From: a sulfur-oxidizing endosymbiont of Gigantopelta aegis
Lineage (GTDB): Bacteria > Pseudomonadota > Gammaproteobacteria > GRL18
Direction of reading: 5' to 3'
DNA: 47,704 bases
NCBI RefSeq assembly: GCF_016097415.1
Contig: NZ_JAEHGE010000004.1
Span: 1-47,704, forward strand
The notes under the pieces are model-generated. The model had not been told where the DNA came from. It made no database searches and was given only the letters and a program-made list of their open reading frames with translations. Shown here piece by piece: positions 3,418 through 41,746 of the stretch (its first letter is position 1; the number at the start of each line of letters is the position of its first letter). A program made the position numbers and the translations under genes.

Positions 3418-4733
3418 TTGTATTACAAACCAGTAAAGGGGCCGCTATCCCCGTTTCTTTCGCCAGGTGATAATCATGTCGATCACCTGACCAAATGGCA
3501 CTCAACGGGAATATATGTGCCACATTCAAGGTATTAATCAAGGGGCGGCGCACGTTGGAATATACATGACCTGGCAGCGAAGACAACCAAGCATGAAATG
3601 AATTGGTTGTTTCATGCCGCGTAGTAAAGCCCTTGCTATTAATCACCTGCATCACGGTATCTAACCGTTGATGACATATATCCAAATCTGGATGCCAGAC
3701 AGTAATTGTCGAAGTGTAATAACCATACGCCACAACATCATTACCCAGTTCCTCTAAAGCGGCTTCCGCATCAACCGCATTACTTTCAGCCTCGGTATCG
3801 ACAATACGTGACTCTGTACCTGATGCCTGTTCTTTAACCAGAGTAAATAATGACTTTCGTTTTGAAAACCAGTTCTTGCGATATTTATCAACCTCATTCT
3901 TTGCATCTTGATTGTCCAGACAGATAAACCGGCTTGACCAGCGATATTCAAGAGCCAGGTGATTGAGTCCATCCAAAATACCCGGCCATGCTTCCGATGG
4001 AAACCCGTTTATCGTAGCCGTCATGACATAGTTATTTCCCAACACAGGAATTTCACCGGGTTGATACGCCTGATCGGTCAGAATATGATCCAGATAGATT
4101 GGGGTATCAGGTGTTTTTACCGGATGTCTTCTTGATGAAACGGTGGAATGTAAATAAGTCAGCGTTTCATCATCATTCAATTCAACAACTTCTGGAAAAA
4201 CATCCCGCATGATTCCGGCAATATGTTTGACCGTTTTAATGAAATAACTCAAGTCTCGCTGGTTATCATAATCCTGGTCGTGTGCATCACGATTCGGATC
4301 ATCAATAAAAACAGCTTCCACTTTTTTAACCTTATCGGGTGGCATAACCCAGGTAAACGTTAAAAAATAATTGGATTCAAAGTGATCTCCTTCATCTTCA
4401 TAATGTCCACGCCGTTCTTCATCGACAATCCAGCTTGCAGAATTTGGCCACTGACAGGACACATATTCATTTGTCCTGAAACGCTGGGACTCAGAGAAGT
4501 ACGCCCATCCAGAACCCAGCCGTTTAAGAACATTGTTCAATCGTGCGCTACTGGATTGAAGTTCAGCCGGTGAAGAACTTCCCAAGTCAGGACCACGAAA
4601 AGCAATGGTTTTTTGCAAAACGCCATTTTTTTGCAAAATGACACCAGGGGCAACTAACATCGCCCAAGGCAAATAGTCACTTAACCACTTTGTTTTTTTC
4701 CGGTATTCGGATAAATTAAACATGCCATAACTC

Positions 4734-14996: not shown

Positions 14997-15416
14997 CTAA
15001 TCTATTGCTTTGGCAATAACTCCGCCTTCGGGGTGTGACCAGGAATATTCCAGAAGCCAATGATACAAATTAATAAATTGATCACCACCACCAATGGATG
15101 ACATATGGTTATAAGAAAACAGGCAAGCGACAATACCGGCAGCTTCCAGACTTAGCGATCCATCAAAGTAGTTATTAGCCCAGATCAAATTCAATGATTC
15201 AGCATCAAGACTGGGAGCCATAAAGAACCCCCCGTTCGATAATTCATAGAAATTCCAATATCCCCCCTGGTAATCAGAGCAAAGTTTTTCCATGTAATGA
15301 TAAATAAGGTTTTCACAAATAAGAAATTTACCACCGAAATATTCAGGCAGTTTATTCATACGGATAGATTCAGGAACAACAACTGAATTTACAACAATTT
15401 CAACTTCTTCACACAT
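14997..15416 (-). CDS. ardB: ArdB/KlcA-type antirestriction protein
   Basis: 139 aa. The family pattern is clear: VVPESIRMNKLPEYFG, then YHYMEKLCSDYQGGYWNFYELSNGGFFMAPS, and the C-terminal EAAGIVACLFSYNHMSS. ArdB/KlcA proteins relieve type I restriction of incoming plasmid DNA by a non-DNA-mimic mechanism. Ribosome site AGGAG 9 nt before ATG. The promoter carries an O_A operator and a leader hairpin, nearly identical to those of ardC, so both antirestriction genes are probably derepressed together, for example on entry into a new cell. Confidence 0.93.
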   Translation of the reverse strand: MCEEVEIVVNSVVVPESIRMNKLPEYFGGKFLICENLIYHYMEKLCSDYQGGYWNFYELSNGGFFMAPSLDAESLNLIWANNYFDGSLSLEAAGIVACLFSYNHMSSIGGGDQFINLYHWLLEYSWSHPEGGVIAKAID

Positions 15417-20465: not shown

Positions 20466-21368
20466 TCAGGCGGCATTCTGAGACAGAAAAGACTGGGTAG
20501 CCTGCTCTATCCATTCATGCGCTTTTTGTGCTTGCGCTGCGGCCTTGAAAATGGCTTTTTTGTCTTCTCTTAACACACCCAGCCAATGATCTATATAAGA
20601 CGCATGATCTTGAACGGAACCGGATAAACCTAAACCGGCCATACAGAAATTAGCCCCAAGTTCTGCAACCAGCTCTTCAAAGGCATAAGCCCCTTTAGCC
20701 TGCTTGGAATCATAAGGAACACGATCACAACGGCTTTTATGTTTGGTTGCATGAACTAACTCATGTAAAGCCGTGGCATAATAATCATTCGCCGAAATAA
20801 AGCGGGTTCTGTCTGGCATAGTAATTTCATCGGTAGATGGCCGGTAAAACGCCCGTGTGCCGCCTTCATGAATCACCACACCTGAAGCCATCAAAACAGT
20901 TTCAGCGGCTTCTATGGAGTCAAAACCGCCCTCAAAATTGGTTTTAGGTTCGGGTAATTCAATCCCTTCTATCTGATCCAGATTAAAAACTATAAAAGAG
21001 CGCAACATCGGAATTTTTTCTATAATTCCCTCCCCATTTTCGTTGAATTCGCCGGTTTCTTTTTCCCATGTTTTATAAAAAATAACCATGGTTCCCTTTT
21101 CGCCTTTTTTAACGTGTCCGCCTTTTGCCGCTGCTTGCTTATAGGTCATCCAGCGAGACGACGAAAAACCGCGCAACTGCTGTTCCATCCACAACAGACA
21201 AACATTAATGCCACGGTAAAAATCACCGGATGAATGGTTAACCGGTAACGTCATTTCACCGGAACGATCCCAAGGGCAAACCCAAGGACTCACGCCTTGC
21301 TCTAAAGAATCAATAATTTTATCGGTAACTTCTTGGTATAAATCGCGCTTTGATTTTGAATAAGCCAT
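20466..21368 (-). CDS. ardC: ArdC-type antirestriction protein (zincin-like)
   Basis: 300 aa from ATG 21,368; an upstream in-frame start would lie inside the leader and promoter. The N-terminal single-strand-DNA-binding domain begins YQEVTDKIIDSLEQGVSPWVCPW. The C-terminal half has a zinc-protease-like motif ATALHELVHATKH followed by FEELVAELGANF. ArdC proteins bind single-stranded DNA and protect incoming plasmid DNA from restriction. The promoter and leader are duplicated from (or to) those of ardB. Confidence 0.93.
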   Translation of the reverse strand: MAYSKSKRDLYQEVTDKIIDSLEQGVSPWVCPWDRSGEMTLPVNHSSGDFYRGINVCLLWMEQQLRGFSSSRWMTYKQAAAKGGHVKKGEKGTMVIFYKTWEKETGEFNENGEGIIEKIPMLRSFIVFNLDQIEGIELPEPKTNFEGGFDSIEAAETVLMASGVVIHEGGTRAFYRPSTDEITMPDRTRFISANDYYATALHELVHATKHKSRCDRVPYDSKQAKGAYAFEELVAELGANFCMAGLGLSGSVQDHASYIDHWLGVLREDKKAIFKAAAQAQKAHEWIEQATQSFLSQNAA

Positions 21369-21389
21369 GTTATGAACTCCTAGTGTCTT

Positions 21390-21423
21390 AAAAAAACCGG
21401 TTGGGGCGTGGTGTCCCTCAACC
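21390..21423 (-). promoter_or_regulatory. Leader hairpin with U-tract before ardC
   Basis: Identical to the ardB leader hairpin: GGTTG-A-GGG/CCC-CAACC, then GG and seven T, then AAGACACTAGGAG. Confidence 0.5.
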
Positions 21424-21425
21424 TT

Positions 21426-21461
21426 GTATATAATTATATATACTTTTATATACTGCGTCAA
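21426..21461 (-). promoter_or_regulatory. ardC promoter with O_A operator
   Basis: -35 TTGACG (21,461-21,456), 17-bp spacer, -10 TATAAT (21,438-21,433); operator GTATATA-ATTA-TATATAC at 21,426-21,443. Confidence 0.8.
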
Positions 21462-25180: not shown

Positions 25181-26155
25181 CTAGTACTGCCTTTTTACTG
25201 GTTCAAAAAACATAGTCCAATAATATTCTGCTGCTCCTTCATTGGTAAGAATTTTTTCTGTTCGATGCAAATGTGACATTCCCATTGACTCCAAGCCTAA
25301 AATGTTACCATTGTCTTTGATACTCATACTTTCATTGAAGCTATTCCCTTGACCAAGCCCAGAGCTACTATACATTATCGATGATGAACCTTTTGAGCCA
25401 AGAAAATCGCCGAGCCAAATACCGCATTTAGAAGCTTGTTTCCCATTGATGTATATTATGGATTCAAATGAACGAGAATCAACCTTTTGAAAATTGGTAT
25501 TTGTCCCAGGGTTTCGGATTTTAAGTTCTTGTAGTGATCCTTCAAAAAAACGTGCCATATAATCGAAAGCCTTAGTAATAAAAGTGTCTTTGTCGTGATC
25601 TGAAAAAGCCTTTGGTATGGCTAGATTACTTGAACGTGGCAATTCTGGTTTACTGGGTACTGAAGTTGGAATGCTTATACTTTTAAATGAACTGGTTGCC
25701 GTGGAAGGTATTTTCGCAGTCAAGTGTTTGGCTACTGTTTCAATGTTTTGGATAATTTCAAGGAATGCATCATCTAAACTGAGATATTTTTCAACTGGTT
25801 TACCATCTTTTGTCGCTGCTTGAAGCTGTCCAAAAGGTAGTCCAGTCCAATGACATGGACGCAGGATAATAGGAACAACAACTGCTTCCTTACGATTGTG
25901 GCGTGCAAGTGCTTCTGTCATTTCTAGTTCATAGCAATAACGAGAGGAAATGAAATCAGAGCTTATTAACAAGAGTATGATATCAGCTTGGCGTAACTCA
26001 TCATCAATCCGGTCTGCCCATTTTTCACCTGAGATAATTCGCCGATCATGCCAGGTTTCTACAATGCCCTGATGTTGTAAGCATGTTAGATGTTTTTGGA
26101 GTTCGTTACGATAATTGTCATCAACATGAGAGTAAGATATAAAAATCTTTATCAT
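25181..26155 (-). CDS. TIR-domain protein, probable effector of a four-gene operon
   Basis: 324 aa from ATG 26,155 (an in-frame TTG at 26,167 overlaps the upstream stop). Residues 1-140 are a bacterial TIR domain: KIFISYSHVDD, ETWHDRRIISGEKWADRID, ADIILLLISSDFISSRYCYELEM (the Glu in this motif, near residue 78, is the likely NAD-cleaving residue) and IILRPCHWTGLPFGQLQA. After a serine/proline-rich linker the C-terminal domain (about 185-324) is unknown, rich in Gly/Ser and beta-like. TIR enzymes often kill the cell by depleting NAD on phage infection. It is translationally coupled to the ImmA/IrrE gene. Confidence 0.85.
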   Translation of the reverse strand: MIKIFISYSHVDDNYRNELQKHLTCLQHQGIVETWHDRRIISGEKWADRIDDELRQADIILLLISSDFISSRYCYELEMTEALARHNRKEAVVVPIILRPCHWTGLPFGQLQAATKDGKPVEKYLSLDDAFLEIIQNIETVAKHLTAKIPSTATSSFKSISIPTSVPSKPELPRSSNLAIPKAFSDHDKDTFITKAFDYMARFFEGSLQELKIRNPGTNTNFQKVDSRSFESIIYINGKQASKCGIWLGDFLGSKGSSSIMYSSSGLGQGNSFNESMSIKDNGNILGLESMGMSHLHRTEKILTNEGAAEYYWTMFFEPVKRQY

Positions 26156-26163
26156 ATATTTCT

Positions 26164-26913
26164 TCAATTGAAAGTTAGTAAAGACAAAACATCACCTTCT
26201 ATTGTTTGTATGCTTTGTTCGTAAATATTTTGATTATAGGCTTCTCTGCAATTGAACCATTTATCTGCGCCTATTTTTCTAGGTGATGTTTGATCATGTT
26301 CTCTGCCATATAGAATATCCATTGCGCTACTTTCATAATGCAATTCATTTTTTGGAAAAAAATGAATTGGTATCTTTGTGTTGCGTGTAAACCATTTTCG
26401 ACCTAATTGCCCATTACATACAAGTACAGAAGGCCAAGAACCACGTTCAACCAAACTTATTGCTGTCGCAGGTATACTTGTTCCAAAAGATTTGGCAGTT
26501 TTTCTTATGGTGTCAAAATTTAGCTTTTTAAACTTATTCAAATATGGGCGTACAATATAGTTTGGCAATAATAAATTAGAAGCAAATTTATCAGCCTGTC
26601 TTTCTAATATTGCCACATCCGAATGATGACCTCCGATATCATCGGCCCTACAAACTAGGGTTCTACCTCTGTGATAATACCAGTGTCCAATTTCATGCCC
26701 TATAGAAAATTGTTGCCTCACTTTTGGGCTGCTAGAGTTAACTGTAATAATGGCTTTATTATCAGAACCAACAATACGTGCTTCACATCCATCTAGCGGT
26801 CTTCTTTTTATTGTTGCACCAACATGATATGCGATAGCTTCAAGGTCTATTTCTTCTGGTTCAGTAATTCCTAGTTCTTGAAGCAGTTGCTCTGCTTCAG
26901 TAAGTCCATTCAT
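26164..26913 (-). CDS. ImmA/IrrE-type zinc metallopeptidase
   Basis: 249 aa. HEIGH (about 73-77) with a downstream ERQADKFASNLLLP Glu (about 104) forms the zinc-peptidase signature of the ImmA/IrrE family, which often cleaves a repressor or antitoxin-like partner. Here a natural target is the sigma-like protein or the unknown protein of the same operon. The C-terminal about 100 residues have no known match. It overlaps its neighbours by 4 nt on each side, allowing for the TTG start of the TIR gene. Confidence 0.9.
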   Translation of the reverse strand: MNGLTEAEQLLQELGITEPEEIDLEAIAYHVGATIKRRPLDGCEARIVGSDNKAIITVNSSSPKVRQQFSIGHEIGHWYYHRGRTLVCRADDIGGHHSDVAILERQADKFASNLLLPNYIVRPYLNKFKKLNFDTIRKTAKSFGTSIPATAISLVERGSWPSVLVCNGQLGRKWFTRNTKIPIHFFPKNELHYESSAMDILYGREHDQTSPRKIGADKWFNCREAYNQNIYEQSIQTIEGDVLSLLTFN

Positions 26914-28487: not shown

Positions 28488-31400
28488 TTATGTTGTCGTT
28501 AATTCAGTAGCGATCATTTCAGCTTGTTTAAGGACGGTTTCAGTAGCAAGTAATTGCATATCTGGCGGATAGCCAAATTGTCGTAAGGTTCTTTTTACAA
28601 TCACTTTTAATTTGGCTCTTACACTTTCTTTTATCGTCCAGTCAATTGAAGCATTTTCCCGTACTCTTTTCGTCAATATAACCGCTAATTCGCGTAATTG
28701 ATCGTGCTGCATGAGTTCTTTTGCACTTTCATTATTGGCAACTGCCGTATAAAACGCATATTCAAAATCAGTAAGCCCAAGTGTTTTCGCTTCATTATCT
28801 GAGGCGACAATTTCCTTACTGATTTTAATCAGCTCATCCATGACCTCAGCGGCAGTCAGGATTTTGTTCTGATATTTTTTAATCGCTATTTCGAGCATTT
28901 CCATTAAGGATTTGCTTTGTACTAGGTTCTTTTTAGCCCGAGCTTTCAGCTCGTCATTAAGCAGTTTTTTAAGCACTTCCAAAGCTACGTTTTTATGCTC
29001 CATGCCTTTAAGTTCGAGTAAAAAATCTTCGGAAAGAATGGAAATATCCGGCTTTTTGATTCCGGCAGCATCGAATACGTCAATGACCTGTTCAGATACC
29101 AGGGCTTTGTCGATTACTTGGCGAATGGTGGTTTCAATTTCTTCATTGGTCTTGCCGGAGCCCGTGCCATCAAATTTAGCTAGCCGTGCTTTGACCGCTT
29201 GAAAAAATGCCACTTCATCTTTGGCTGCCATGGCTTGTTCATGAGGAATAGCAATGGCGAAGGCTTGGGATAATGCGGTAACTTCGTTGATATAGCGTTT
29301 TTTGCCGTCTTTCAGACCCAAAATATGTTCTTCGGCGGCCAGGATAAGGGAAAGTTTTTCGGAAGTATCCGCTTCAAAATAATCTTCATAAGCAAACCCG
29401 TGATACATTGCAGAAATCACTTCGAGTTTTTCCAGCATCACCTCAACTGCTTGTTCTTGCACTAAAGTCGGATCACCTTTACCGCCCGCATCAGAATAAA
29501 AGGATAAGGCTTCTTTTAAATCGGAGGCAATGCCTAAGTAATCCACCACCAGGCCGCCCGGCTTATCCAGATAAACCCGGTTTACCCGTGCAATGGCTTG
29601 CATCAAATTATGGCCTTTCATTGGTTTGTCGATATATAGCGTATGCATACTTGGCGCATCAAAGCCAGTGAGCCACATATCGCGGACAATAACGAGCTTT
29701 AATTCATCGTCATTGTCTTTCATACGTTCAGCTAGGGCTTTACGTTGCTTTTTAGTGGTGTGATGTTGAGCCATTTTGGGCCCATCTGACGATGAGGCCG
29801 TCATGATGACTTTAATAGCGCCTTTATTTAGATCATCAGAATGCCATTCCGGTTTGAGTTTGATGATTTCATCATATAAATCCACGGCAATGCGACGAGA
29901 CATGCTCACGATCATGCCTTTACCGGCAAACACTTCCTGCCGTGCTTCAAAATGACTGACAATATCTTTAGCAATATTTTGAATTCGCTGATGACTACCA
30001 ATTAACGCTTCAATTTGCGTCCATTTGGCTTTAGCTTTTTGCGTATCAGTCAGATCTTCTTGGTCTAGCTCCTTGTCTAGCTCGGCAATTAGTTTTTTTC
30101 CTTCATCGCTCAAACTCACCTTCGCCAGGCGGCTTTCATAATAGATGCGAACCGTAGCGCCATCTTCGACCGCTTGGGCAATATCGTAAATATCAACATA
30201 ATCCCCAAATACTGCCGGTGTGTTGACATCGGTTTTTTCAATCGGTGTGCCGGTAAAGCCTAAATAAGTGGCATTGGGCAAAGCATCACGCAGATATTTA
30301 GCAAAGCCGTAAACGACTTTTTTACCGATGACTTCCCCGTGTTCGTTTTTTTCATCCGCAGTTTTGGCTTTAAAGCCATATTGGGTGCGGTGCGCTTCAT
30401 CGGCAATAACGATGATATTACGCCGGTCGGATAATTCATCATAGACATTACCTTCTTCCGGCTGGAATTTTTGGATCGTGGAAAAAATTACGCCGCCTGA
30501 GGCCACTTTTAACAGTTCTTTGAGTTGTTGTCTATCTTCGACCTGCTTAGGTTCTTGCCGTAATAACTGAGCTGAGGCGGCAAAGGTATCAAACAATTGA
30601 TCGTCAAGATCGTTACGGTCGGTAATCACCAACACGGTTGGATTATCCAAAGCCAACACGATTTTGCCGGTATAAAATACCATGGAAAGTGATTTGCCAG
30701 AACCTTGCGTATGCCAAACTACACCGGCTTTTTGGTCTCCACCAATGCTTACAGCGGTCAAGGTTTTATTAATCGCTTTATTCACAGCATAGTATTGATG
30801 ATAAGCCGCGATTTTTTTAACCGTGTTAATGCTAATTACACCGGTTTTTAAGTCTTCTTTTTTGGATTTTTCAAACACCACAAAATACCGGATCAAATCC
30901 AGCAAGGTGGTTTTGTTCAGCATCCCGTTGATTAGGGTTTCAAGCTGGCTGACCAGGTGTGAAGCTTCCGCTTTGCCATCTTCGCTTTTCCAGGCCATAA
31001 ACCGGCTTAATCCTGCCGATAAAGAGCCTGCTTTGGCTTCCAAGCCATCAGAGATCACCAATAAAGCGTTATAGGTAAACAGGCTTGGGATTGTCTGTTT
31101 GTAGGTTTCTAACTGTTTATAAGCGGATTTAATCGTGGCGTTTTCATCGGTTGCATTTTTAAGTTCAATGACGACTAGCGGTAAGCCATTGACGAAAAGG
31201 ACAAGATCAGGGCGTTTATTTTGGTTATTTTCAATAACCGTGAATTGATTAGCGACCACAAATTCATTGTTTTCTGGGTGTTCAAAATCAATCAGCCAAA
31301 CCAGATCACCGCGATCCTGTCCATCTTTCTGAAAGCTAACATTGATCCCTTCAGTCATCATCCGGTGGAAAGTTTCGTTATTCGTCAGTAATTCCGGTGA

Positions 31401-31634
31401 ATGGATGCGTTCTACCTCTTTTTGCGCTTCTTGTAATGAAGAGAGTGGAACGGATGGGTTGATGCGCTGAAAGGCTGAAAACAGCCGGTCTTTTAAAATC
31501 ATCTCATCATAATGGCTACGCTCTGGCCTTTCGCCATCAGGGGCAATATCCGGTGCATGGATGTATTGATAGCCTTGTTTTTCAAACAGCTTGATAGCAA
31601 AGTCTTCAATGGCGTTTTCGGTGAGATTGGTCAT
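28488..31634 (-). CDS. hsdR: Type I restriction enzyme R subunit
   Basis: 1048 aa, normal for HsdR. The N-terminal nuclease has PDLVLFVNGLPLVVIELKN (Asp143, Glu157-x-Lys159, the PD-ExK type). The motor has Walker A TQGSGKS (about 309-315), ADEAHRTQYG (DEAH about 412-415) and GFTGTP, followed by helicase motifs including GFDAPSMHTLYIDK and QAIARVNR. It cuts unmethylated DNA after translocation in an HsdR2M2S1 complex. It is the last gene of the hsdM-hsdS-AAA-S8-hsdR unit, 7 nt after the protease gene. Confidence 0.97.
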   Translation of the reverse strand: MTNLTENAIEDFAIKLFEKQGYQYIHAPDIAPDGERPERSHYDEMILKDRLFSAFQRINPSVPLSSLQEAQKEVERIHSPELLTNNETFHRMMTEGINVSFQKDGQDRGDLVWLIDFEHPENNEFVVANQFTVIENNQNKRPDLVLFVNGLPLVVIELKNATDENATIKSAYKQLETYKQTIPSLFTYNALLVISDGLEAKAGSLSAGLSRFMAWKSEDGKAEASHLVSQLETLINGMLNKTTLLDLIRYFVVFEKSKKEDLKTGVISINTVKKIAAYHQYYAVNKAINKTLTAVSIGGDQKAGVVWHTQGSGKSLSMVFYTGKIVLALDNPTVLVITDRNDLDDQLFDTFAASAQLLRQEPKQVEDRQQLKELLKVASGGVIFSTIQKFQPEEGNVYDELSDRRNIIVIADEAHRTQYGFKAKTADEKNEHGEVIGKKVVYGFAKYLRDALPNATYLGFTGTPIEKTDVNTPAVFGDYVDIYDIAQAVEDGATVRIYYESRLAKVSLSDEGKKLIAELDKELDQEDLTDTQKAKAKWTQIEALIGSHQRIQNIAKDIVSHFEARQEVFAGKGMIVSMSRRIAVDLYDEIIKLKPEWHSDDLNKGAIKVIMTASSSDGPKMAQHHTTKKQRKALAERMKDNDDELKLVIVRDMWLTGFDAPSMHTLYIDKPMKGHNLMQAIARVNRVYLDKPGGLVVDYLGIASDLKEALSFYSDAGGKGDPTLVQEQAVEVMLEKLEVISAMYHGFAYEDYFEADTSEKLSLILAAEEHILGLKDGKKRYINEVTALSQAFAIAIPHEQAMAAKDEVAFFQAVKARLAKFDGTGSGKTNEEIETTIRQVIDKALVSEQVIDVFDAAGIKKPDISILSEDFLLELKGMEHKNVALEVLKKLLNDELKARAKKNLVQSKSLMEMLEIAIKKYQNKILTAAEVMDELIKISKEIVASDNEAKTLGLTDFEYAFYTAVANNESAKELMQHDQLRELAVILTKRVRENASIDWTIKESVRAKLKVIVKRTLRQFGYPPDMQLLATETVLKQAEMIATELTTT

Positions 31635-31641
31635 TTAATTC

Positions 31642-34065
31642 TTATCTAACCCTTGTTCTTGTCTGAATATTTGTTCTGATGGCATTATAAAGTTCTATTT
31701 CTTTTTCATGCTCAAATATCACTGAAATGCAATAATCTTGCTCTCTGTTTGCATCCGTTATCCATTTATTAAAATTCAAAAGAACCAGTGATACAGGCGA
31801 GGAAGGTCTGCTATTAGGTTCTCTCTGATATAATTTCCATGCCTTTTGGTGACAACCTGCTTTTCTGATGTTTGCGCCTGGAAAAAAATCGATCTCGTAT
31901 TTTTTCAAATCATTAGGTACTCCGATCTGTTCAGAATTTTCTGAAATTACACCATATTTTTCTATTAAGATCTGGGGATTCACTGAATGAAATAGGTGAA
32001 ATTCCATGCGGTTACCTAAATAACTATCACCACGTGTTGCACGGGTTTCAGGCGTAAAAGTAAGGGTGATGCTTATTTTTTTCTTTCCGGATTCAGTAAA
32101 AAAAAGTTCTGGTAGTTGGAGTGAATAAACCTTGATTTGGTTAAGTGCGATTTTCCCTTCATCCCAAAGAACTGCTCGGTTATCGAAGGAATATAAAGAT
32201 TTATCGTAATTGCTCAATCCGTAACCACAAACAGACAAATGACATTGTTCAGCTTTTTTCTTGTTTTCAGTGCAATAAAAATCCTTATTTGGCGAGAAAG
32301 GGTAATCTGCTCCTGCCAACAACATGTTCTTAATAAAGTTGGCTGATTTATCCGGAAAATGGTTAGCTATTTTCCCAGCAAGATGAGCAACCTTTGGTGC
32401 CGAAAAGCTTGTGCCTGTATAAAATTGGATAATATTATCCATCACCCTATTATTTAAAAGAGCAAGCTTACCGCCTTTATCTTCCACAATACGTCCATAA
32501 TTGTCTGAAAGAATCAGGTTTCCCCCGTATTCAACCAACTCCGGTTTAATCATTCCATTGATTCCAAAACCAGTTCTAGTAAATGGGGAGGGTTGATTGT
32601 ATTTTGCTATTGCTGTTTTAATATCCTCCGCACCATATCGCTCATTTTCAATTCGAATTTCATCTGCAATTGAGCCAATACTCAATGCCAGAGCAGATGT
32701 TGCGGGGTTTATGATCTTAAAATCTTCATTTTCTATAAGATATCGTGGATAGTTTTCAGTAATTTCATTAATGGGTTCAAAAAAATTTAGCGGGGATTGA
32801 TTACCAGCAGATACTATGAAAACAACGTGAGGAAAAGTAAAGGCAAGTTCATCAATCAAAGCTGCCAGTGGCAATTGACGAGAATAATGCTTGTGCCATA
32901 TTTCATGGTGATTACCTAACGAAATGTTGACTACTTTGATTTGGTACTCAGAGTTGGATAAGAAGTTTTCTACAGCATCTTTAAACTGATGTTCGATTAG
33001 TTTTTCTGGATCATAAACTGCCGATACTGTCCCTGTAATACCATTTGTTTCTGCATACATCACCTTGGCAGAGAATAGCCAGTTTGAAGGGGAAAAGTTT
33101 TTGTTATTCAGGCACTCCTCAATATCACCATAAACAGCACAACCGGCCACGGCGGTTCCATGTCCAACAGTATCTTGTGTTTCTGTTTCTCCCGATTGGA
33201 AGTTTTCTTCATCGCCAACACATGTTTGCAGCATAGGATGATTAGAAACAATCCCTGAATCAATCACTAAAATTCCTGTAGCATTTTCTTCAGGTGCTTT
33301 GAATTCAATGCTTTCCACATCGGGTTGCATCATTTCAAAGGGGTTAAATTGAACCATAGAAGGCCTATCGGCACGGGCAACTTCTTTTAATTGAATGACT
33401 TCATCAAAAATAGTTTTAGTGAGTTTTACCCTGAGTAAGACAAAGGATTTTGTTATCAGAGTGTCAGAAATTCTGAATTGGGAAAAATCAGGGTAAGATT
33501 CTTTCATTTGTTGGATGAACCGTTCATTTCTCTGCTTATCATCCATTTTCCACAATTCAAGATCAATAAAATCAGCAGTATCATCCAAAGGTTGTATTTT
33601 TAGTCGTTCACCAATCTTTTCTTCCAATGGGATTTCATCAAATGACTCAATGGCATGGAAAAAATCGTAGTTTGCTCCTTCCTCTGAGCCATACGTGCTC
33701 AGTTTTTTTTTGAATCGGCTTAAGTCATCATCGTCGCTGAATACAACCCAAAAGCCCTTTCTCCCTTCTGCAACTGATAAAACATGGATACCCATAGATA
33801 CCAACGTTTTCTCAAAAGCATCAGGCGAGACGCTTTGGTTGATTTCTATTTCAAATATCAACGTGGGGTCAATTTTCCCGGAAAGCTGGTTTTTTAATGT
33901 GGAAAATTTACTGCTTAAGCTTTCGGCTTTTTGGGTTGCTTGTTGTGAAAAGTGGGCTTTGTTTCTACCTTGCGGTAATGAGAACCCACCCCCAGTATTC
34001 CTACGTTTTTGCCGTTCAATATTATCTTGAAATAAAGGGAGTTTCAGATGTTGATGTTTTTCCAT
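31642..34065 (-). CDS. Subtilisin-like (S8) serine protease within the type I operon
   Basis: 807 aa. The catalytic triad is Asp269 (LVIDSGI), His302 (VGHGTAVAG) and Ser553 (GTSFSAP), with the oxyanion Asn422 (VSAGNQ). The first about 260 residues form an N-terminal domain with no signal peptide and unknown partner. The C-terminal about 200 residues are beta-rich and not recognised. No export signal means it acts in the cytoplasm. It is coupled to the AAA ATPase (stop and start overlap) and lies between hsdS and hsdR. S8 protease plus AAA ATPase pairs occur in defence regions; here the pair may be an add-on effector. Confidence 0.93.
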   Translation of the reverse strand: MEKHQHLKLPLFQDNIERQKRRNTGGGFSLPQGRNKAHFSQQATQKAESLSSKFSTLKNQLSGKIDPTLIFEIEINQSVSPDAFEKTLVSMGIHVLSVAEGRKGFWVVFSDDDDLSRFKKKLSTYGSEEGANYDFFHAIESFDEIPLEEKIGERLKIQPLDDTADFIDLELWKMDDKQRNERFIQQMKESYPDFSQFRISDTLITKSFVLLRVKLTKTIFDEVIQLKEVARADRPSMVQFNPFEMMQPDVESIEFKAPEENATGILVIDSGIVSNHPMLQTCVGDEENFQSGETETQDTVGHGTAVAGCAVYGDIEECLNNKNFSPSNWLFSAKVMYAETNGITGTVSAVYDPEKLIEHQFKDAVENFLSNSEYQIKVVNISLGNHHEIWHKHYSRQLPLAALIDELAFTFPHVVFIVSAGNQSPLNFFEPINEITENYPRYLIENEDFKIINPATSALALSIGSIADEIRIENERYGAEDIKTAIAKYNQPSPFTRTGFGINGMIKPELVEYGGNLILSDNYGRIVEDKGGKLALLNNRVMDNIIQFYTGTSFSAPKVAHLAGKIANHFPDKSANFIKNMLLAGADYPFSPNKDFYCTENKKKAEQCHLSVCGYGLSNYDKSLYSFDNRAVLWDEGKIALNQIKVYSLQLPELFFTESGKKKISITLTFTPETRATRGDSYLGNRMEFHLFHSVNPQILIEKYGVISENSEQIGVPNDLKKYEIDFFPGANIRKAGCHQKAWKLYQREPNSRPSSPVSLVLLNFNKWITDANREQDYCISVIFEHEKEIELYNAIRTNIQTRTRVR

Positions 34066-35075
34066 TATTCATCCCTCTGTCCATTTTTTTTAATTTTTTC
34101 TCGGCGGATAAATTGTTCAATTGCTGTTTCCAAGTCCCCCATTTCCAAAATGTTTCTTGCATCAATAATGACGGACTTCATAGCCTCTTCTGTGACCATT
34201 TTTATATCCGCTGGTGATAATCCCTGACTGGTTATTGCAGCTTTTGATAGGTTAATTTTTTTATCGCGTTTGATTGGTCGTAAAAAACGCTCAAAAAGTT
34301 TTTTACGAGCTTCTTCATCAGGCAGTACATAATCAATAACTGCATCGAAGCGCCTCCAAATAGCACTGTCGAGCATATTCTGGTGATTAGTGGCAGCAAA
34401 CAAGATGCTATCGCCTTTGAAGTTATCCAGCATTTGCAAAAAGTTATTGACCACCCGTTTGATTTCGCCATGTTCATAAGCGTCATCACGGTTTTTGCCG
34501 ATAATATCAAATTCATCAAAGAGTACTATCCAAGTATCGTTTTCAATAAAATCAAAAACTTTTCGTAGATTTCCTGCTGTTTCTCCCAAATAGGATGAGA
34601 TAATTGCATCAAAACGAATATAAACTAAGGGAATATTTAGCATAGAGCTAATGATTTGTGCGGAAAATGTTTTGCCTGTTCCTGGATCCCCACAGAGCAG
34701 AATTTTCTTTTTATAGCTTAGGTTATAGGTCGCTAAAATATCTGCATCCTTAAATTCACGGACAATGCGTTCTAGCTGGTCTTTGGTGTAACTGGATAAA
34801 ATAAGGCTGTCGAAATCCTGTTCAAAATGCTGTATTTCCAACAAAGGAAAGCCTTTCTCCGTATCTCTTGGAATCGGAAGGCTTTGTTTGAAGCGTTTTG
34901 CATTGTTCGAAACGCACGCAGATTGATACAGTGCTTTTTCAAGCTCCTTGGCAACAATTGTATGTTTCTTGCGTTTTTCCCTTTCAATATATTCTCTTGC
35001 TGTCTGTATAAAGGCTTCGTTATCCTTGTTATTAAATGACAAGAAGAGTTGTTTTATTAGTTCTGAATTCGTCAT
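34065..35075 (-). CDS. AAA-family ATPase paired with the S8 protease
   Basis: 336 aa. A helical N-terminal domain (1-100), then Walker A GDPGTGKT (129-136), the pore-like region VYIRFDAIISSYLGETAGNLRKVFDF, Walker B VLFDEFD (184-190), sensor 1 ILFAATNHQN and an arginine-finger candidate WRRFDAVI: a classical AAA/FtsH-CDC48-type module. It probably remodels or delivers substrates to the S8 protease, or gates its activity. Its ATG overlaps the hsdS stop by 4 nt, tying its expression to the restriction system. Confidence 0.93.
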   Translation of the reverse strand: MTNSELIKQLFLSFNNKDNEAFIQTAREYIEREKRKKHTIVAKELEKALYQSACVSNNAKRFKQSLPIPRDTEKGFPLLEIQHFEQDFDSLILSSYTKDQLERIVREFKDADILATYNLSYKKKILLCGDPGTGKTFSAQIISSMLNIPLVYIRFDAIISSYLGETAGNLRKVFDFIENDTWIVLFDEFDIIGKNRDDAYEHGEIKRVVNNFLQMLDNFKGDSILFAATNHQNMLDSAIWRRFDAVIDYVLPDEEARKKLFERFLRPIKRDKKINLSKAAITSQGLSPADIKMVTEEAMKSVIIDARNILEMGDLETAIEQFIRREKIKKNGQRDE

Positions 35076-36259
35076 GTTTTTAACTCCTTGTCATATTGTA
35101 TCCGAACTTCACCGCTCATCAGTTTGGGTAATAGGGTATCACGGAGTTTTTCTAGTGATTTTATTTGTTTTGAATTTGCTATTTCCTTGTCGAGTATAGG
35201 ATTCATTTGTTTTGACATGGCTTCGATTTCTTCAGGAGAAGGAATCAAAACTATTGCTGTATCCAAGTCGCCGCGTTTGATATGCCCCATTGTGGTTGCA
35301 TGGCTTCTTGAAATGGATATGAATTCATCAAGGTGGTGTTTGCACCACATGAGATAAAACCACTTTGGAAAATCATCTGAGGCAACCTTAAAAAGGTGTT
35401 GATTCAACACGCACCTTTCACCATCCCAAACTTTAACCATCAATGATGCTGACCATGCAAAAATTACATCACCATTTTCTACAATATATTCAGGTTTAAC
35501 CTCGCTCGTAACCCAATCAGATGATTCTGAAATTCCATTGCTAAGTTCCTTGATTTTTAAAACTGGGAGTTTTTCTAAATCATTTTTAGGTGGAAATTTC
35601 TGACAAGCTAGACCATTCAAGAAATTAGCAACGTTGCTTAATGGCTTCTCCTCCCAATCCTCCTGTGCCTCCTCAATAAACCACTGGCGAAACAACGTTT
35701 CCGCCATCGCCTCCAGGGTTTTGTTCTGGCGGTGCAGAAGGTCGATTTTATCGTCTAGACTGGACAGGACGGAGGCTATGGCTTTTTGTTCTGGAAGGAG
35801 TGGAAGGGCTATTTCAAAGTTTTCGATCATTCCTTTTGTTAGCGCTCGTCTTGTAGCGCCTATTTCTGATTGCGATAAAAGCTCCTCTTTCATCGCTTGA
35901 AGCAAGTAAAGAATAAATAAATAATCGGCCTGTTCTGAATTCAAACGAACTATAGATACATGCTGATTAACTCTTGCGGGTAAGATCGAATTCGGTACTA
36001 AGCAGCATCGAGCCACACTATCTCCTGTTATGTTCAGTAATACATCATTTTTCTCAACAGTTACGTTTTTTAGTTCATAAGCTTGAGTTTCGTCAATGAA
36101 AGCTAAGCCATTTTTTGAAAACTGAAAGTCTAAAACATTTTGACTACGAATTAAGGATATTCCAGCTTCTTTGTAAGCATTACTCCCACCTCTTGGTGTA
36201 GCCCCACTACCAATTTTTGATGAAATTGCCCCAAGAGTAGTTTGATTCCACTCACTCAT
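35072..36259 (-). CDS. hsdS: Type I restriction-modification specificity subunit
   Basis: 395 aa with two target-recognition domains, each followed by a conserved helix (first: [45 protein letters not shown]; second: [26 protein letters not shown]), which act as a length ruler between the two half-sites. The DNA sequence recognised cannot be read from the protein. Overlaps hsdM by 4 nt. Confidence 0.95.
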
Positions 36260-37791
36260 AACCTCACCTTCGCCAGATTTTCAGCAATGGCTTTATTCAG
36301 CTCGGCTTCTTCCGCTAACTGCGCGTCAAATTCTGCTTTCAGCGCAGTAAAGCGTTCCTTGAAATCGAAATCATCTTCTTCTATTGACAAGCCAACATAG
36401 CGTCCCGGTGTTAAGACATAATCCAGTTCCTTGACTCGCTCAATTGGAGTGGATGCGCAAAATCCCTTAATGTCTTCATACTCACCTTCACCGGTTCGCC
36501 AGGCATGGTAGGTGTCGGCGATTCCCTTAATATCCTCGTACGACAGTTCACGGGTACGGCGGTTAATTAGATACCCCATATTGCGAGCATCAATGAACAG
36601 AATTTCATTTTTGCATGGATGGCCGTTGCTTCTGGAACGGTTCATAAACCACAGTGCCGCCGGAATCTGGGTATTCAAAAACAACTTGGCGGGCAGGTTT
36701 ACGATGCAATCAATTAAATTACCATCTTCGATTAAGGCTCTGCGAATGTCGCCTTCACCACTGGTTTTGCTGGTCAGTGCGCCTTTGGCTAAAACGATCC
36801 CGGCTTTGCCGGTTGGGGACAGGTGATAAATAAAATGCTGGAGCCAGGCAAAATTAGCGCTACCGGATGGTGGGGTTCCATATTGCCACCTGCCATCATT
36901 ACGCAGTAAATCACCGCTCCAGTCGCTGTCATTAAAAGGTGGATTGGCAATAATGAAATCGGCTTTTAGGTCTTTATGGGCATCATTTAAGAATGATCCT
37001 TCGTTGTTCCATTTGACTTGTGAGCTATCAATGCCACGAATGGCCAGGTTCATTTTTGCCAGCCGCCAGGTGGTCTGGTTGCTTTCCTGGCCGTAAATGG
37101 AAATATCGTTGATTTTGCCCTGATGTTCTTCGACAAATTTTTCTGATTGCACAAACATCCCGCCCGAACCACAACAGGGATCAAAGACGCGACCTTTGTA
37201 GGGTTCCAGCATAGAAACCAATAATTCTACGATACTACGAGGCGTATAGAACTGTCCGCCTTGCTTGCCTTCCGCCAAGGCAAATTCACCGAGGAAATAT
37301 TCAAACACATGCCCTAGAATATCGGCACTTCGTGATTTGGCATCACCAAGCGCTATATTGCCGACCAGATCAATTAGGCCGCCCAGATTAGTTGGATCAA
37401 GATTTTGCCGCGCATAAACTTTGGGTAATACGCCTTTGAGCGAAGAATTTTCTTTTTCAATGGCATCCATTGCGGCATCAATAAATTTGCCAATTTCAGG
37501 TTGTTTAGCTTTAGCAAGTAAAAATGACCAACGGGCTTCTGGCGGTACGAAGAAAACATTTTCCGCCTTGTATTCGTCCTTGTCTTCAGGATCGGCTCCG
37601 GCATATTCACCAACACCTGCTTGCAGTTTGGCGAAAAGTTCTTCAAATGAATCCGAAATATATTTAAGGAATATTAAGCCGAGTACCACATGCTTATATT
37701 CTGCTGCATCAATATTTTTTCGTAGTTTGTCAGCGGCTTTCCAAAGCTGTTTTTCTAACAGTTCTTCTTTGGTGTTTTTTGCCTTTGCCAT
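36256..37791 (-). CDS. hsdM: Type I restriction-modification methyltransferase subunit
   Basis: 511 aa. It has the N-terminal HsdM helical domain, the SAM-binding motif DPCCGSGG (204-211) and the catalytic motif NPPF (283-286), giving adenine-N6 methylation. With HsdS alone it makes the protective methylase, and with HsdR the restriction complex. It is the first gene of the operon, so methylation and specificity are made before the protease pair and HsdR. ATG at 37,791; the promoter is presumably in 37,792-37,868, but I see no clear consensus. Confidence 0.97.
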
Positions 37792-37868: not shown

Positions 37869-38432
37869 TCAAATCCCCCCTCTACCGCCAGGTAAATGTC
37901 GGTAGAGTGTGGACGGGGCTACTTTTAACCGGGCAGCTACTTCCTCGACTGTAATATCAGGGTCGGCGAGCATGGCTTTAGCAGCCTGAATATCTTTATC
38001 CGTTAGAGCGGGTGGCCTCCCTCCTTTCTTGCCTCTGGCTCTGGCTGCATCAAGCCCAGCCTTGGTTCGTTCTTTGATAATCGATCGTTCAAATTCTGCT
38101 AATGATGCAAAAATATGGAAGATCAACTTGCCGCCTGATGTAGTGGTATCAATATTTTCAGTCAGGGATTTAAACCCTATCCCTCGATTTTCTAAATCTT
38201 CGACTGTTTCGATTAGTTGCTTAATAGAGCGAGCTAACCGGTCGAGTTTCCAGACAACAAGCGTATCCCCTTCTCTAATATATTCGAGAGCTGCTTTTAA
38301 TTCTGGTCGATCTCGTTGAGCGCCGGAAGCCTTTTCGGTGAAAACCTTTTCGCAGCCTGCTGCTTCCAGTGCGTCAGTTTGTAAATCCTGTTTTTGATCT
38401 TGTGTCGAAACGCGAGCATAACCAACCAGCAT
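37869..38432 (-). CDS. Serine recombinase (resolvase/invertase)
   Basis: 187 aa from ATG 38,432 (a longer frame starts at 38,447). The catalytic Ser is in VGYARVSTQDQ, with the conserved RDRPELKAAL, WKLDRLARSIKQLIE and LAEFERSIIKERT, then a C-terminal helix-turn-helix (ALTDKDIQAAKAMLADPDITVEEVAARLKVAPSTLYRHL). It resolves cointegrates or inverts DNA at a res-type site; large inverted repeats lie about 115 bp upstream. It may mark the edge of an acquired module carrying the type I operon. Confidence 0.93.
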   Translation of the reverse strand: MLVGYARVSTQDQKQDLQTDALEAAGCEKVFTEKASGAQRDRPELKAALEYIREGDTLVVWKLDRLARSIKQLIETVEDLENRGIGFKSLTENIDTTTSGGKLIFHIFASLAEFERSIIKERTKAGLDAARARGKKGGRPPALTDKDIQAAKAMLADPDITVEEVAARLKVAPSTLYRHLPGGRGGI

Positions 38433-38548
38433 AATAAAACCTCCCAAAACTCATATAAAGTATGGATTATTAAGAGATTAATTTCAAGAGACAGTTTTAA
38501 GATAACTTGAGCTATAAATAGGGTTGATTTGTTCACATCTTCTCAATT

Positions 38549-38613
38549 CTCTCAAAAACGAACGTTTTTGAGAGGGTTATAAACTACAAACGTCCTTTTG
38601 TAGTTTATAACCC
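38549..38613. repeat. Two adjacent perfect inverted repeats, possible recombination site
   Basis: CTCTCAAAAACG-AA-CGTTTTTGAGAG (38,549-38,574) is followed at once by 17-bp arms GGGTTATAAACTACAAA and its complement (38,574-38,590 and 38,597-38,613) around CGTCCT. It lies between two serine recombinase genes in opposite orientation; it could be a res or inversion site, or a terminator pair. Confidence 0.55.
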
Positions 38614-38639
38614 TGACCTTTTCTGTTATCTTTTTCTGC

Positions 38640-39240
38640 ATGGAAACCAAGAAATTCATAGCCTATTACCGCGTATCGACAGACAAGCAAGGCCGTGGTG
38701 ATCTGATCCAGTCTTTTACCGAAATCGAAAGCGGTAGAAAAAATAACCGACCAGAATTACTAATAGCGTTAGATGAATGCCGAAAGAATAAGGCCGCTTT
38801 AGTTATTGCTAAACTAGGTCGTCTTGCTCGCAATGTTTATTTCATCAGTGGTCTGGTCTGATGGAAAGCAGTATGGAGTTCGTGGCTGTGGATATGCCGG
38901 AAGCCAATCGGCTCACCATTCATATATTGACCGCTGTGGCCGAACATGAACGGGAGATGATAAGTCAACGTACAAAGGTGGCTCTACAGGCGGCAAAGAA
39001 CCGAGGGGTGAGGCTTGGTAGCCCTACCCCAAAAACGGGGCGGCTATCCGTTCAAAAGTGTTGCAGGAAAAGGCGGATCGTTTTGCCGAAAATGTGTTGT
39101 CCATTATCAAAGAACTACAACTCCAAGGTATTACCAGTTATAAAGCTTTAGCACGTACGTTGAATGTTTGCGGTATTCCAGCAACCAATAATTGTCAATG
39201 GTACGGTGCAACAGCGAAAAAGTACTATATAGAGCAGAAC
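38640..39240 (+). pseudogene. Broken serine recombinase
   Basis: Three frames give pieces of one protein: METKKFIAYYRVSTDKQGR (catalytic Ser region), ESGRKNNRPELLIALDECRKNKAALVIAKLGRLARNVYFISGL, then MEFVAVDMPEANRLTIHILTAVAEHEREMISQRTKVALQAAK, and a helix-turn-helix part ADRFAENVLSIIKELQLQGITSYKALARTLN. Damage seen: a likely internal deletion after KQGR, a 5-bp tandem duplication GGTCT (38,850-38,859) and a missing G near 39,037. A typical invertase is about 200 aa. Its 3' end leads directly into the next gene. Confidence 0.8.
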
Positions 39241-39265
39241 AATACGAGGCTTGAATTTACAAAAA

Positions 39266-40960
39266 ATGTCATCATATCTGGTAGGATTAAATATAAGACA
39301 GGAGCAATTCCAAATGCCAGATGGTTCATACTCTTTTTCTTATCCGGGTGTCGATAATCAGACTCAAAATATCCCATTAAATAACGGAGACATACTTTTT
39401 GTTCTTGGTGCGAATGGAACTGGAAAATCGGGGTTAATTCATAAGATTTATACTCAGAATGCAGGTAAAGCAAAGCGAATTTCTGCTCATCGTCAGACAT
39501 GGTTTAACTCAAATGCACTCGATTTTACTCCTGCAACTAGAATGCAAGCTGCACAAAATATAAATTCCAGAGATTCACAGATACAGTCCAGATGGAAAGA
39601 TGAAAATGGTGTACAAAAGTCGCAGATTGTTATTTTTGATTTAATTAATGCAGAAAACGTTCGTGCGCGTGAAATAGCTAAAGCTATAGATCAGAATAAT
39701 ACTGCTCGTGCAGAAGAATATGCTAAAGCTAATCATCCGCCAATAGAAGTACTAAATCATCTTCTTCAGCTTTCAAATTTACCAATTAAAATTTTTGTTG
39801 AAAAAAATGAAAAAGTTTTTGCCAGAAAGAACAATGGAAATCCATACAGTATTGCCGAGCTTTCTGATGGAGAGAGAAACGCAATTTTAATTGCATCTGA
39901 TGTATTAACAGCCGAAGAAAATACCTTGTTTTTAATAGATGAACCGGAGCGACATCTTCATCGTTCTATTATTTCCCCCCTTCTTTCTTCGCTTTTCCAA
40001 AAAAGGCCAGACTGTGCATTTATAATTGCGACTCATGATGTTGGTTTGCCCATGGATAACCCTGAATCTAATGTGTTAGTCGTACGTGGATGCGAGTGGA
40101 ATGGATCGCAAATTTCTGCTTGGGATGCTGATCTTATATCAGCAGATCATGACATTGATTATCATGTTAAGAAAGATATTCTTGGTTCAAGGCGCACACT
40201 GCTTTTTATAGAAGGAAATCAAAATAGCCTAGACCAGCATATTTACCAAATTTTATTTCCTGATATATCTGTTATTCCTCAAGGAAATTGTACTGCGGTT
40301 GAGCGAGTTGTTAATGGTATTACTTCCACAGAAACCCTTCATTGGGTTAAAGCTTTTGGTTTGATTGATGCAGATGATAGACAACAAGATGAATTGGATA
40401 AATTGAAAGAAAACAATATTTTTTCTTTGCCATGTTATTCAGTAGAGTCACTGTATTATGGTACAGATATGATCTATCAAATTGCTCTTAAACAAGCGTC
40501 TGTAACAGGAGAGGACGCGGGTATATTGAAAAACACAGCCTTACAAGAAGCCATGACTGCGATTGAGCCACATAAAGAACGACTATGTTCACGTCTTTGT
40601 GAACGAAAAGTAAGAACCGAAATTAAATTTCCCGATTGGGAATATATTAAAAATAGAGACGATTTTGGGTTCGATTTAGACTTGAAATCGATCAGGGAAA
40701 CGGAAATACAAAAATTCGATTCTTATATGGAAGCCCAAGATATCAATTCAATCATTGGGCGTTACCCAGTTAGAGAAACACCAATATTAAATAAAATTGC
40801 AGGAGCATTGGGTTTTCAGAATCGTGGAAAATACGAGAGTTCAGTCAGACAACTACTTATTGATAACGAAGAAGTCCGTATTAAAACACGAAATTTATTG
40901 GGTGACCTTGTAACTGTTATAAAAGGAGAACAAGAACCGACAGAAAGACTTTGCGCATAA
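39266..40960 (+). CDS. AAA/ABC-type ATPase fused to a TOPRIM-like domain (PARIS-like)
   Basis: 564 aa from ATG 39,266; ATG 39,314 has a better Shine-Dalgarno (AGGAG) but would drop 16 residues. From ATG 39,266: Walker A GANGTGKS (48-55), ABC signature LSDGERN (199-205), Walker B LFLIDEPE (221-228), H-loop THD (256-258). Then a DUF4435/TOPRIM-like half: LLFIEG (Glu316), LIDADD (Asp368, Asp370) and SVESLYY (Glu394). PARIS consists of an AriA ATPase and an AriB TOPRIM nuclease; this gene has both in one chain, as in fused PARIS or OLD-like proteins. Such systems respond to phage or plasmid anti-restriction proteins by arresting the cell. Confidence 0.82.
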   Translation: MSSYLVGLNIRQEQFQMPDGSYSFSYPGVDNQTQNIPLNNGDILFVLGANGTGKSGLIHKIYTQNAGKAKRISAHRQTWFNSNALDFTPATRMQAAQNINSRDSQIQSRWKDENGVQKSQIVIFDLINAENVRAREIAKAIDQNNTARAEEYAKANHPPIEVLNHLLQLSNLPIKIFVEKNEKVFARKNNGNPYSIAELSDGERNAILIASDVLTAEENTLFLIDEPERHLHRSIISPLLSSLFQKRPDCAFIIATHDVGLPMDNPESNVLVVRGCEWNGSQISAWDADLISADHDIDYHVKKDILGSRRTLLFIEGNQNSLDQHIYQILFPDISVIPQGNCTAVERVVNGITSTETLHWVKAFGLIDADDRQQDELDKLKENNIFSLPCYSVESLYYGTDMIYQIALKQASVTGEDAGILKNTALQEAMTAIEPHKERLCSRLCERKVRTEIKFPDWEYIKNRDDFGFDLDLKSIRETEIQKFDSYMEAQDINSIIGRYPVRETPILNKIAGALGFQNRGKYESSVRQLLIDNEEVRIKTRNLLGDLVTVIKGEQEPTERLCA

Positions 40961-41243
40961 TACTAACATGCCCTTTTGATGGATATATGATCTGCTAACA
41001 ATCCTAAGTGTTATCGTTTTGTCTAATTTTAAATGATTATCATATTCGAAATAGAAAATTTAGGAGAGTAGACTACATTTGCTTTTATCGAGGGAGCATT
41101 GGAGCGAGAAGACCGATTGTTCTATCAGCCTTGAATATAAACAGATTCATATGACTGAGAGAAACGTCCGACTGCTGGGTGGAATTCCCACTAACAACAA
41201 GAACCGCAACATACTAAAAGCAACCAAAACTAAGGAGGTGTCT

Positions 41244-41363
41244 ATGAAAAAATTGATCCTCAAAATTCGCTATACGATAAGTTTGGCTGTAGGACTGTTG
41301 GTCTTAGTTGGCGCTGGAGGGGCACAATATATTTGTGCTCGATCCAATGCTTCTTTCCTATAA
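41244..41363 (+). CDS. Possible 39-aa membrane peptide
   Basis: ATG 41,244 is 5 nt after a near-ideal AAGGAGGTG. The peptide starts MKKLILKIRYTISLAVGLLVLVGAGGAQYICARSNASFL: a basic start, one hydrophobic segment and a short polar tail. It could be a lysis or toxin-like peptide or the beginning of a lost gene. A longer frame from 41,079 has no support. Confidence 0.4.
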   Translation: MKKLILKIRYTISLAVGLLVLVGAGGAQYICARSNASFL

Positions 41364-41746
41364 ACATAAAACATTTCGATACTAATTGTCTAAAGTTAAT
41401 CGCAAATACGAACAAAAGAAAAGTTTTCTCTACCATCATTTAAATGTTCTCATGAGAACATTTAAACCTAAATTTAGTATTAGCAAAAAAGTAAACAGTT
41501 GCGATAACATCTATCACCACATCAGAGTAAAGATGAATCATGAAGGGCTTTGCCCTCAGCCTTCGGCTTCACCCAAGGTATTTAAACCAAGAGTGATGCG
41601 GTAGGGGGCCGGAGCTAACCGGCTGCGAACGAGGGGTAACGTCTATGGTAACCAGGTGAGCTGGCCACGTTACCCCTTTTGTTTATGCAATAGGCTGGTT
41701 ACAGCAGTTACTAGGCCACAAAGAGGGTAGATACCTAGTAAACATG
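41364..41746. other. Gene-free region with an O_B site and dispersed repeats
   Basis: No gene is convincing. 41,488-41,590 is close to 21,826-21,968; 41,545-41,676 is inverted at 17,108-17,241. The long hairpin GGGGTAACGT (41,633-41,642) with ACGTTACCCC (41,667-41,676) encloses CCAG-GTGAG-CTGG and is followed by TTTT, so it may terminate transcription toward trbI-side genes. Confidence 0.65.
41446..41459. promoter_or_regulatory. Perfect O_B palindrome (site 13)
   Basis: GTTCTCATGAGAAC with symmetric AAAT/ATTT flanks, the first backbone operator after the cargo. Confidence 0.7.

Follow-up and report, generated by a model that had tools for sequence, protein, structure and literature searches.

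The closest described systems to the gene considered here are the PARIS systems, whose published definition takes in both two-gene and single-gene fusion forms (in passages of PMC9122126). In two-gene PARIS, six AriA subunits hold three AriB subunits, and a trigger frees AriB, which dimerises and cuts tRNA (PMC11455837); release of AriB upon trigger binding is also described in passages of PMC12409363. Single-gene fusions were reported by Rousset et al. in 2022, and one of the two published single-gene profiles was built from an AAA_21 and DUF4435 pair (passages of PMC9122126). It is stated to be unclear, in a passage of a 2023 review, whether single-gene AriAB forms a separate OLD class (PMC10568477). 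Work on the mechanism of single-gene PARIS was not found in the open-access literature searched. The interest of the fused form lies in its mode of switching, which could be like that of two-gene PARIS, i.e. effector release, or like that of OLD proteins. The single-chain form is understudied yet not rare, and the gene described here is itself ordinary for its family. To our knowledge, no member of the clade to which its product belongs has been tested.

The gene lies within 47,704 nucleotides of contig NZ_JAEHGE010000004.1 (the window) from a sulfur-oxidizing endosymbiont of Gigantopelta aegis. The open frame at 39266-40960 on the plus strand encodes 564 aa and is intact; residue numbers below refer to this frame. 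The features of the gene, with the evidence for each, are as follows.

39314..40960 (+): coding sequence of a single-chain AriAB (PARIS-type) protein of 548 aa, from its most likely start; frame, Pfam, PADLOC and start evidence
39300..39304 (+): likely ribosome-binding site AGGAG before ATG 39314; duplex -6.6
39314..40138 (+): ABC-ATPase (AriA-like) half, residues 17-291; Pfam AAA_21 and VIA match to AriA
39407..39430 (+): Walker A, G48-S55; sequence and conservation of K54
39860..39877 (+): ABC signature LSDGER, L199-R204; conservation of S200 and E203
39926..39949 (+): Walker B LFLIDEPE, residues 221-228; conservation of D225 and E226
40034..40036 (+): switch histidine H257; conserved in 74/74
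40157..40957 (+): AriB-like TOPRIM/DUF4435 half and C-terminal helical domain, residues 298-564; DUF4435, model and AriB match
40211..40213 (+): TOPRIM catalytic glutamate E316; conserved in 74/74
40367..40375 (+): TOPRIM metal-binding DxD, D368-D370; each aspartate in 74/74

Both halves are recognised by sequence profiles. In Pfam, the chain matches AAA_21 (E 2e-10) and DUF4435 (E 3e-10), each above its cut-off, and the PADLOC AriAB profile PDLC02982 matches residues 22-450 with 205.7 bits (E 3e-61). The chain thus resembles the single-gene fusions of Rousset et al. (2022) in carrying both domains and matching this profile, but it is divergent, being aligned only to profile position 467 of 570 and sharing 18-47% identity with the 73 other sequences in the family alignment. 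Separate PADLOC AriA and AriB profiles also match. The best non-PARIS PADLOC model is a PtuA with 46.2 bits; the 'ATPase-Toprim_I-B' model (32.5 bits) is among the best 25 models for the chain, and no GajA or OLD profile is among these 25. By profile, the ATPase half scores 47.9 bits for AriA versus 53.7 bits for the retron Ec83 ATPase. The 25 NCBIfam models listed all fall below their curated cut-offs, and among PHROGs the highest score (194 bits) belongs to a phage moron family annotated as 'ABC transporter'. Across the family, PDLC02982 is matched at E 1e-3 or better by all 74 members, the present chain included; the GajA profile is weakly matched by 73 of the 74 (best E 2e-11), and many members also match the profiles of PtuA, Mads and GajA, though less strongly than that of AriAB. 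When compared as profiles, the fused TOPRIM halves and eight stand-alone DUF4435-type proteins agree with a probability of 97.2% (E 3e-11), with the glutamate and the DxD aligned, whereas AriB in the PDB was found neither by the sequence profile of the fused TOPRIM half nor by a stand-alone DUF4435 protein as query.

Judged from an alignment of 74 sequences that includes the present chain, both active sites are intact and conserved. The Walker A lysine K54 occurs in all 72 members having that column, S200, E203, D225, E226, H257, E316, D368 and D370 in 74/74, and E394 in 73/74. The chain thus combines an ABC ATPase with all its motifs (AAA_15 or AAA_21 in the PARIS definition), a DUF4435/TOPRIM domain with its glutamate and DxD, and the single-chain fusion. 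Position 353, which by spacing lies near the tRNA-gripping lysines of AriB, is basic in 29 of 34 close homologs and threonine in the present chain.

The true start of the gene is probably ATG 39314 (M17) and not 39266, which would give a protein of 548 aa; the same frame is also open from TTG 39251. The start at 39314 is favoured by the start positions of homologs, the spacing of the AGGAG and the low confidence of residues 1-11 in the 564-aa model (pLDDT <50). In 32 close homologs the Walker A glycine is aligned and can serve as the reference: their longest frame starts 26-37 residues before that glycine in 23, 39-42 residues before it in three and 62-102 residues before it in six, with a median of 31 residues for all 32; the corresponding distance in the AriAB chain is 31 residues from M17 and 47 residues from M1. 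The AGGAG stands at a normal spacing before ATG 39314, and its duplex value of -6.6 can be set beside random 20-mers from the window, which reach -5.8 at 5% and -7.7 at 1%. The GAGG near ATG 39266 is too distant from that ATG, and the GAGG near TTG 39251 is too close. A scan of 38400-41500, which is a weak type of evidence, gave no sigma-70-like site upstream of the gene on its strand.

An earlier note on this DNA, made from the sequence alone, had proposed a PARIS-like ATPase and TOPRIM in one chain and had placed its 564 aa at the short end for such a fusion. The idea of a short fusion was rejected, as full-length single-chain relatives have a median of 543 aa (502-633, 89 ORFs) and the closer clade (188 bits or more) a median of 548 aa (523-609, 39 ORFs). 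These lengths were drawn from the 97 loci, own locus included, that match with at least 120 bits; both counts include the present ORF, and the ORFs run from the first start codon and are hence slightly long.

By tblastn, a match was found in 51 of 72,556 plasmid records, all with <60% identity, the best being from Acidiphilium multivorum (43.6% identity). Of 50,697 phage records, 2 matched; they belong to one Oenococcus phage and the match covers 49%. Matches at E 1e-3 or better occur in 70 of 398 sampled genomes of the phylum to which the window belongs and are strong (E below 1e-15) in only 13, which include the present genome, most of the other matches being short ABC-ATPase matches; the AriAB profile gives the identical 13 genomes above 160 bits, among 96 of the 398 at E 1e-3. 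Neither the 15 further genomes of the genus nor the 8 taken from the family's other genera, many of them drafts, had a match, which suggests that the AriAB gene arrived by transfer. Genome contigs and viral contigs were also scanned, each set yielding 80 loci in which true relatives are mixed with distant ABC ATPases. Homologs of the same two-domain length are spread over many groups, in genomes, plasmids and viral contigs alike, and the two-domain architecture is thus not due to chance. A DUF4435 search in the 398 genomes gave 18 above the cut-off: in 11 of these the domain is part of a single chain (537-575 aa), and in 7 it has its own frame (283-335 aa). In this sample single chains are thus no rarer than separate DUF4435 genes, and the single chain is a common form.

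Several relatives differ in setting or arrangement. Single-chain AriAB of the same family, 34% identical over 94%, is found on E. coli plasmids of 5.3-6.5 kb (e.g. NZ_CP041680.1), which are tiny and have few other annotated genes. This distant form is present in 19 of 5426 complete E. coli genomes, with 24 of its 26 places on plasmids; on plasmids of 5330 bp (L002) and 6431 bp (L004) it fills a quarter to a third of the sequence, with Rop present, and the 6431-bp plasmid also has a ToxN/AbiQ toxin gene. On a Paraburkholderia sabiae plasmid (L041:7345-11617), a two-gene pair of AriA and DUF4435 stands directly upstream of a single-chain AriAB, and the AriA of the pair matches the AriA in the PDB. 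On a Rothia terrae plasmid (L038:5959-7607), the AriAB homolog consists of two overlapping frames of 361 and 188 aa, which may be split naturally or by a frameshift.

The full chain was modelled with AlphaFold2 using the 74-sequence alignment (mean pLDDT 90.6, pTM 0.74), and the C-terminal 267 residues were modelled alone (pLDDT 93.3, pTM 0.86). Searched with the full model, Foldseek places Rad50, GajA, OLD (6p74), SMC and retron ATPases at the top, and neither AriA nor AriB is among the 50 matches listed. For the ATPase half, VIA re-alignment gave retron Eco7 PtuA (9vhe_C; Z 15.9, rmsd 3.7, 232 residues) and AriA (8v46_B; Z 15.3, rmsd 3.8, 240 residues), which is a tie; by model and profile alike, the half is no closer to AriA than to retron PtuA. 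For the C-terminal half, AriB 8ux9_A is the first match both in Foldseek, at E 1.1e-3 with a low TM of 0.36/0.33, and in VIA, with Z 10.3 and rmsd 6.1 over 215 residues (model 1-256 to chain 8-308). AriB 8v46_D comes second in VIA with Z 10.2, and C-terminal regions of OLD class 2 come next (6njw, Z 8.8, 168 residues). The modelled TOPRIM half is more AriB-like than OLD-like by a modest margin of 1.5 Z units. Computation thus shows one chain in which an ABC ATPase of the AriA/PtuA group is followed by a predicted AriB-like TOPRIM nuclease and a C-terminal helical domain.

The PARIS-like pairing proposed in the earlier note is supported by the AAA_21 and DUF4435 domains, the AriAB profile score, the kept catalytic residues and the AriB-like fold. 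A structure prediction with an OLD-type fold had been named as the outcome that would speak against it, and the C-terminal half came out modestly nearer to AriB than to OLD. The note had called the ATPase motifs AriA-type, and the half matches retron PtuA as well as it matches AriA. From sequence and model, the gene encodes a genuine and probably functional single-chain PARIS-type protein and is an unexceptional member of the published type.

Comparison with the individual systems brings out where the chain departs from each. Two-gene PARIS of E. coli (8ux9, 8v45-8v49) shares the ATPase fold (Z 15.3) and the TOPRIM fold (Z 10.3), whereas the present system is one chain, in which AriB release is impossible unless the chain is cut. 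The sensor half is also more compact. The distance separating the Walker A lysine from the ABC signature has a median of 148 residues (133-170) in 72 fused members and is 146 residues in the present chain, compared with about 328 in E. coli AriA, so that much of the middle insert is missing here. In seven ATPases adjoining stand-alone DUF4435-type genes, two of which are below the Pfam cut-off, the same distance is 236-359 residues. The stretch between the ATPase motifs is about 90-210 residues shorter in the fused sensor, and because of this the trigger surface may differ. OLD proteins of class 1 and 2 and GajA are likewise one chain with an ABC ATPase and then a TOPRIM, but the present TOPRIM is modestly nearer to AriB (10.3 vs 8.8) and the chain has DUF4435. 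The ATPase half is equally similar to PtuA of retrons and Septu (Z 15.9), but here a TOPRIM domain is fused on. PtuA acts together with the HNH nuclease PtuB; for such a partner, the first ORF downstream with at least 80 aa (41079-41363) was scanned and has no Pfam match.

The gene stands next to recombinase genes, which are outside the system.

37869..38447 (-): intact plasmid-type serine resolvase, neighbour; Pfam Resolvase, plasmid resolvases up to 80% identical
38643..39262 (+): broken serine recombinase, pieces in three frames; Pfam Resolvase on two pieces

Pfam finds Resolvase in the broken gene at 38643-38858 (E 7e-10) and, in a different frame, at 38861-39148 (E 2e-7); the third piece, to about 39262, has no Pfam match and was assigned by eye. 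It had been proposed that the AriAB gene reads directly on from a wrecked recombinase at a recombination hot spot. A broken serine recombinase does abut the gene, but not in frame. The hot spot is consistent with the adjoining resolvase and its flank, since the 55 bases upstream together with the first 8 coding bases show 79% conservation in plasmids of Xanthomonas citri (8 of 10 records matched), as is expected of a resolvase with its site, and the Acidiphilium relative is also 0.2 kb from a resolvase. Resolvase-like genes occur at 9 of 96 homolog loci vs 2 of 61 controls, however, and of the 150 neighbour genes of homologs scanned with Pfam only 4 have a Resolvase domain; these counts are too small for a hot spot to be claimed. 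A perfect 18-bp inverted repeat with a 6-base loop, a terminator or recombination site, lies at 38573-38614 in the gap that separates the resolvase from the broken recombinase, with a second palindrome, seen by eye, just before it.

A restriction operon lies on the other side of the resolvase.

28488..37791 (-): type I restriction-modification operon hsdM-hsdS-ietA-ietS-hsdR, neighbour; ORFs, Pfam and PADLOC

In this operon, ietA and ietS (AAA ATPase and S8 protease) are inserted between hsdS and hsdR, and all five genes overlap or nearly touch. The window also carries the ArdB and ArdC genes that the earlier note had reported, with PF03230, which we take to be ArdB/KlcA, at 14997-15416 and an ArdC N-domain at 20466-21461 (Pfam). 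That an intact ariAB is kept on the same plasmid suggests that this ArdB and ArdC would not be strong triggers of AriAB. With type I restriction, anti-restriction and an anti-anti-restriction-like gene on one plasmid, self-triggering is directly testable.

A general link to type I restriction was not apparent, as HsdR-, HsdM- and HsdS-like genes occur at 4, 4 and 2 of 96 homolog loci vs 2, 3 and 1 of 61 controls, in a BLAST comparison with the plasmid's own proteins and flanks of unequal length. Among 150 of 173 immediate neighbours at 95 loci, Pfam found HSDR_N 2, Methylase_S 2, N6_Mtase 3, Resolvase 4 and Phage_integrase 6 times; neighbours more than 3 kb away or longer than 1300 aa had been excluded before the 173, 23 more were dropped by name order, and the neighbours are computed frames, false ones included. 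None of these five families is among the 25 listed for 90 control genes, a weak comparison since single matches may be hidden. In the same 150 neighbours, each family listed by PADLOC is found in 2 members, nearly all of them type I RM models. Individual loci are closely linked: AriAB lies between hsdS, which it overlaps, and hsdR on a Peregrinibacteria contig (L065:5374-14596), directly after hsdS on an Acidobacteria contig (L062:6484-11635) and about 11 bases before hsdR on a Clostridia contig (L086:189-5038). Such hsd-embedded AriAB resembles PrrC inside ecoprrI, as described in passages of PMC12707154. Overall enrichment of hsd genes at AriAB loci over the controls is not clear, and that AriAB might guard its own neighbouring RM operon is an idea only.

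Taken as a whole, the locus is best explained by a single-chain PARIS (AriAB), an abortive-infection sensor and effector that would be switched on by rearrangement and would cut RNA with its TOPRIM domain, and we consider this probable. In the resting cell, ATP-bound ATPase heads would oligomerise and keep the TOPRIM halves separate or hidden. The trigger would be a phage protein, by analogy one that counters restriction, which would bind the ATPase half and rearrange it, whereupon two TOPRIM halves could pair and cut host RNA, by analogy tRNA, using two metal ions; translation would then stop and phage production fail. Because the halves are covalently joined, activation would be a rearrangement inside the oligomer, unless a protease cuts the linker. 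It is nearly an even question whether single-chain AriAB is in addition a separate mechanistic class between PARIS and OLD, in which the effector would never leave the chain, tethered AriB-like TOPRIM halves would pair within the oligomer, and the compact ATPase, without much of the insert of two-gene AriA, would sense other phage or plasmid proteins. Somewhat more doubtful is a variant compatible with the single-chain PARIS explanation, in which the effector is of PARIS type but would answer to a trigger other than Ocr-like anti-restriction proteins and cut another RNA substrate. The compact sensor half, the loss of the commonly basic residue at 353 and the ArdB and ArdC encoded by the plasmid itself point this way, as does the lack of response of Salmonella PARIS to Ocr or Gp5 in reported tests (passages of PMC11341690), although a compact sensor could still bind acidic DNA mimics.

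An OLD-family DNA nuclease of class 1 or Gabija-GajA-like type, which would cut or nick phage DNA and not RNA, would have the same one-chain domain order. The presence of OLD (6p74) and GajA, without AriA or AriB, among the 50 Foldseek matches listed for the full model fits this explanation, as do the second rank of OLD class 2 C-terminal regions after AriB (Z 8.8, 168 residues), the weak GajA matches of 73/74 members and the status left unclear in the passage of the 2023 review (PMC10568477). The OLD explanation is nonetheless unlikely, given that AriB is first for the TOPRIM half in both Foldseek and VIA with the longer coverage (215 residues), and that the AriAB profile scores 205.7 bits with GajA and OLD profiles not among the best 25. 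A cargo gene that is decaying or silent, left at a recombination site and without function today, could be read from the adjoining broken recombinase and from the scan of 38400-41500 with no sigma-70-like site upstream on the gene's strand. It is very improbable, as 548 codons are intact, the catalytic residues are kept and the ribosome-binding site is good, and promoter scans of this kind are weak evidence.

The contig has type IV transfer genes, and its TraG is closest to that of a Thiothrix plasmid (53% over 98%), followed by a Prosthecochloris plasmid (51%), from which, as a weak inference, an environmental host is likely. Near-identical plasmids were not found for the AriAB region, the sole match being 100 bases of hsdM. 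At 829-4723 (-), a DDE transposase (PF01609, 2007-3035) splits a VirB4/TrbE-like transfer ATPase in two, with CagE_TrbE_VirB at 3374-4723 and the TraG P-loop at 829-1932; conjugation may be broken by this separation. At 25181-26913 (-), a CapP-like peptidase (203 bits) is followed immediately by a full-length ThsB-type TIR protein (PADLOC PDLC00420, 375 bits), an unusual combination of a Thoeris-like part with a CBASS-regulator-like one.
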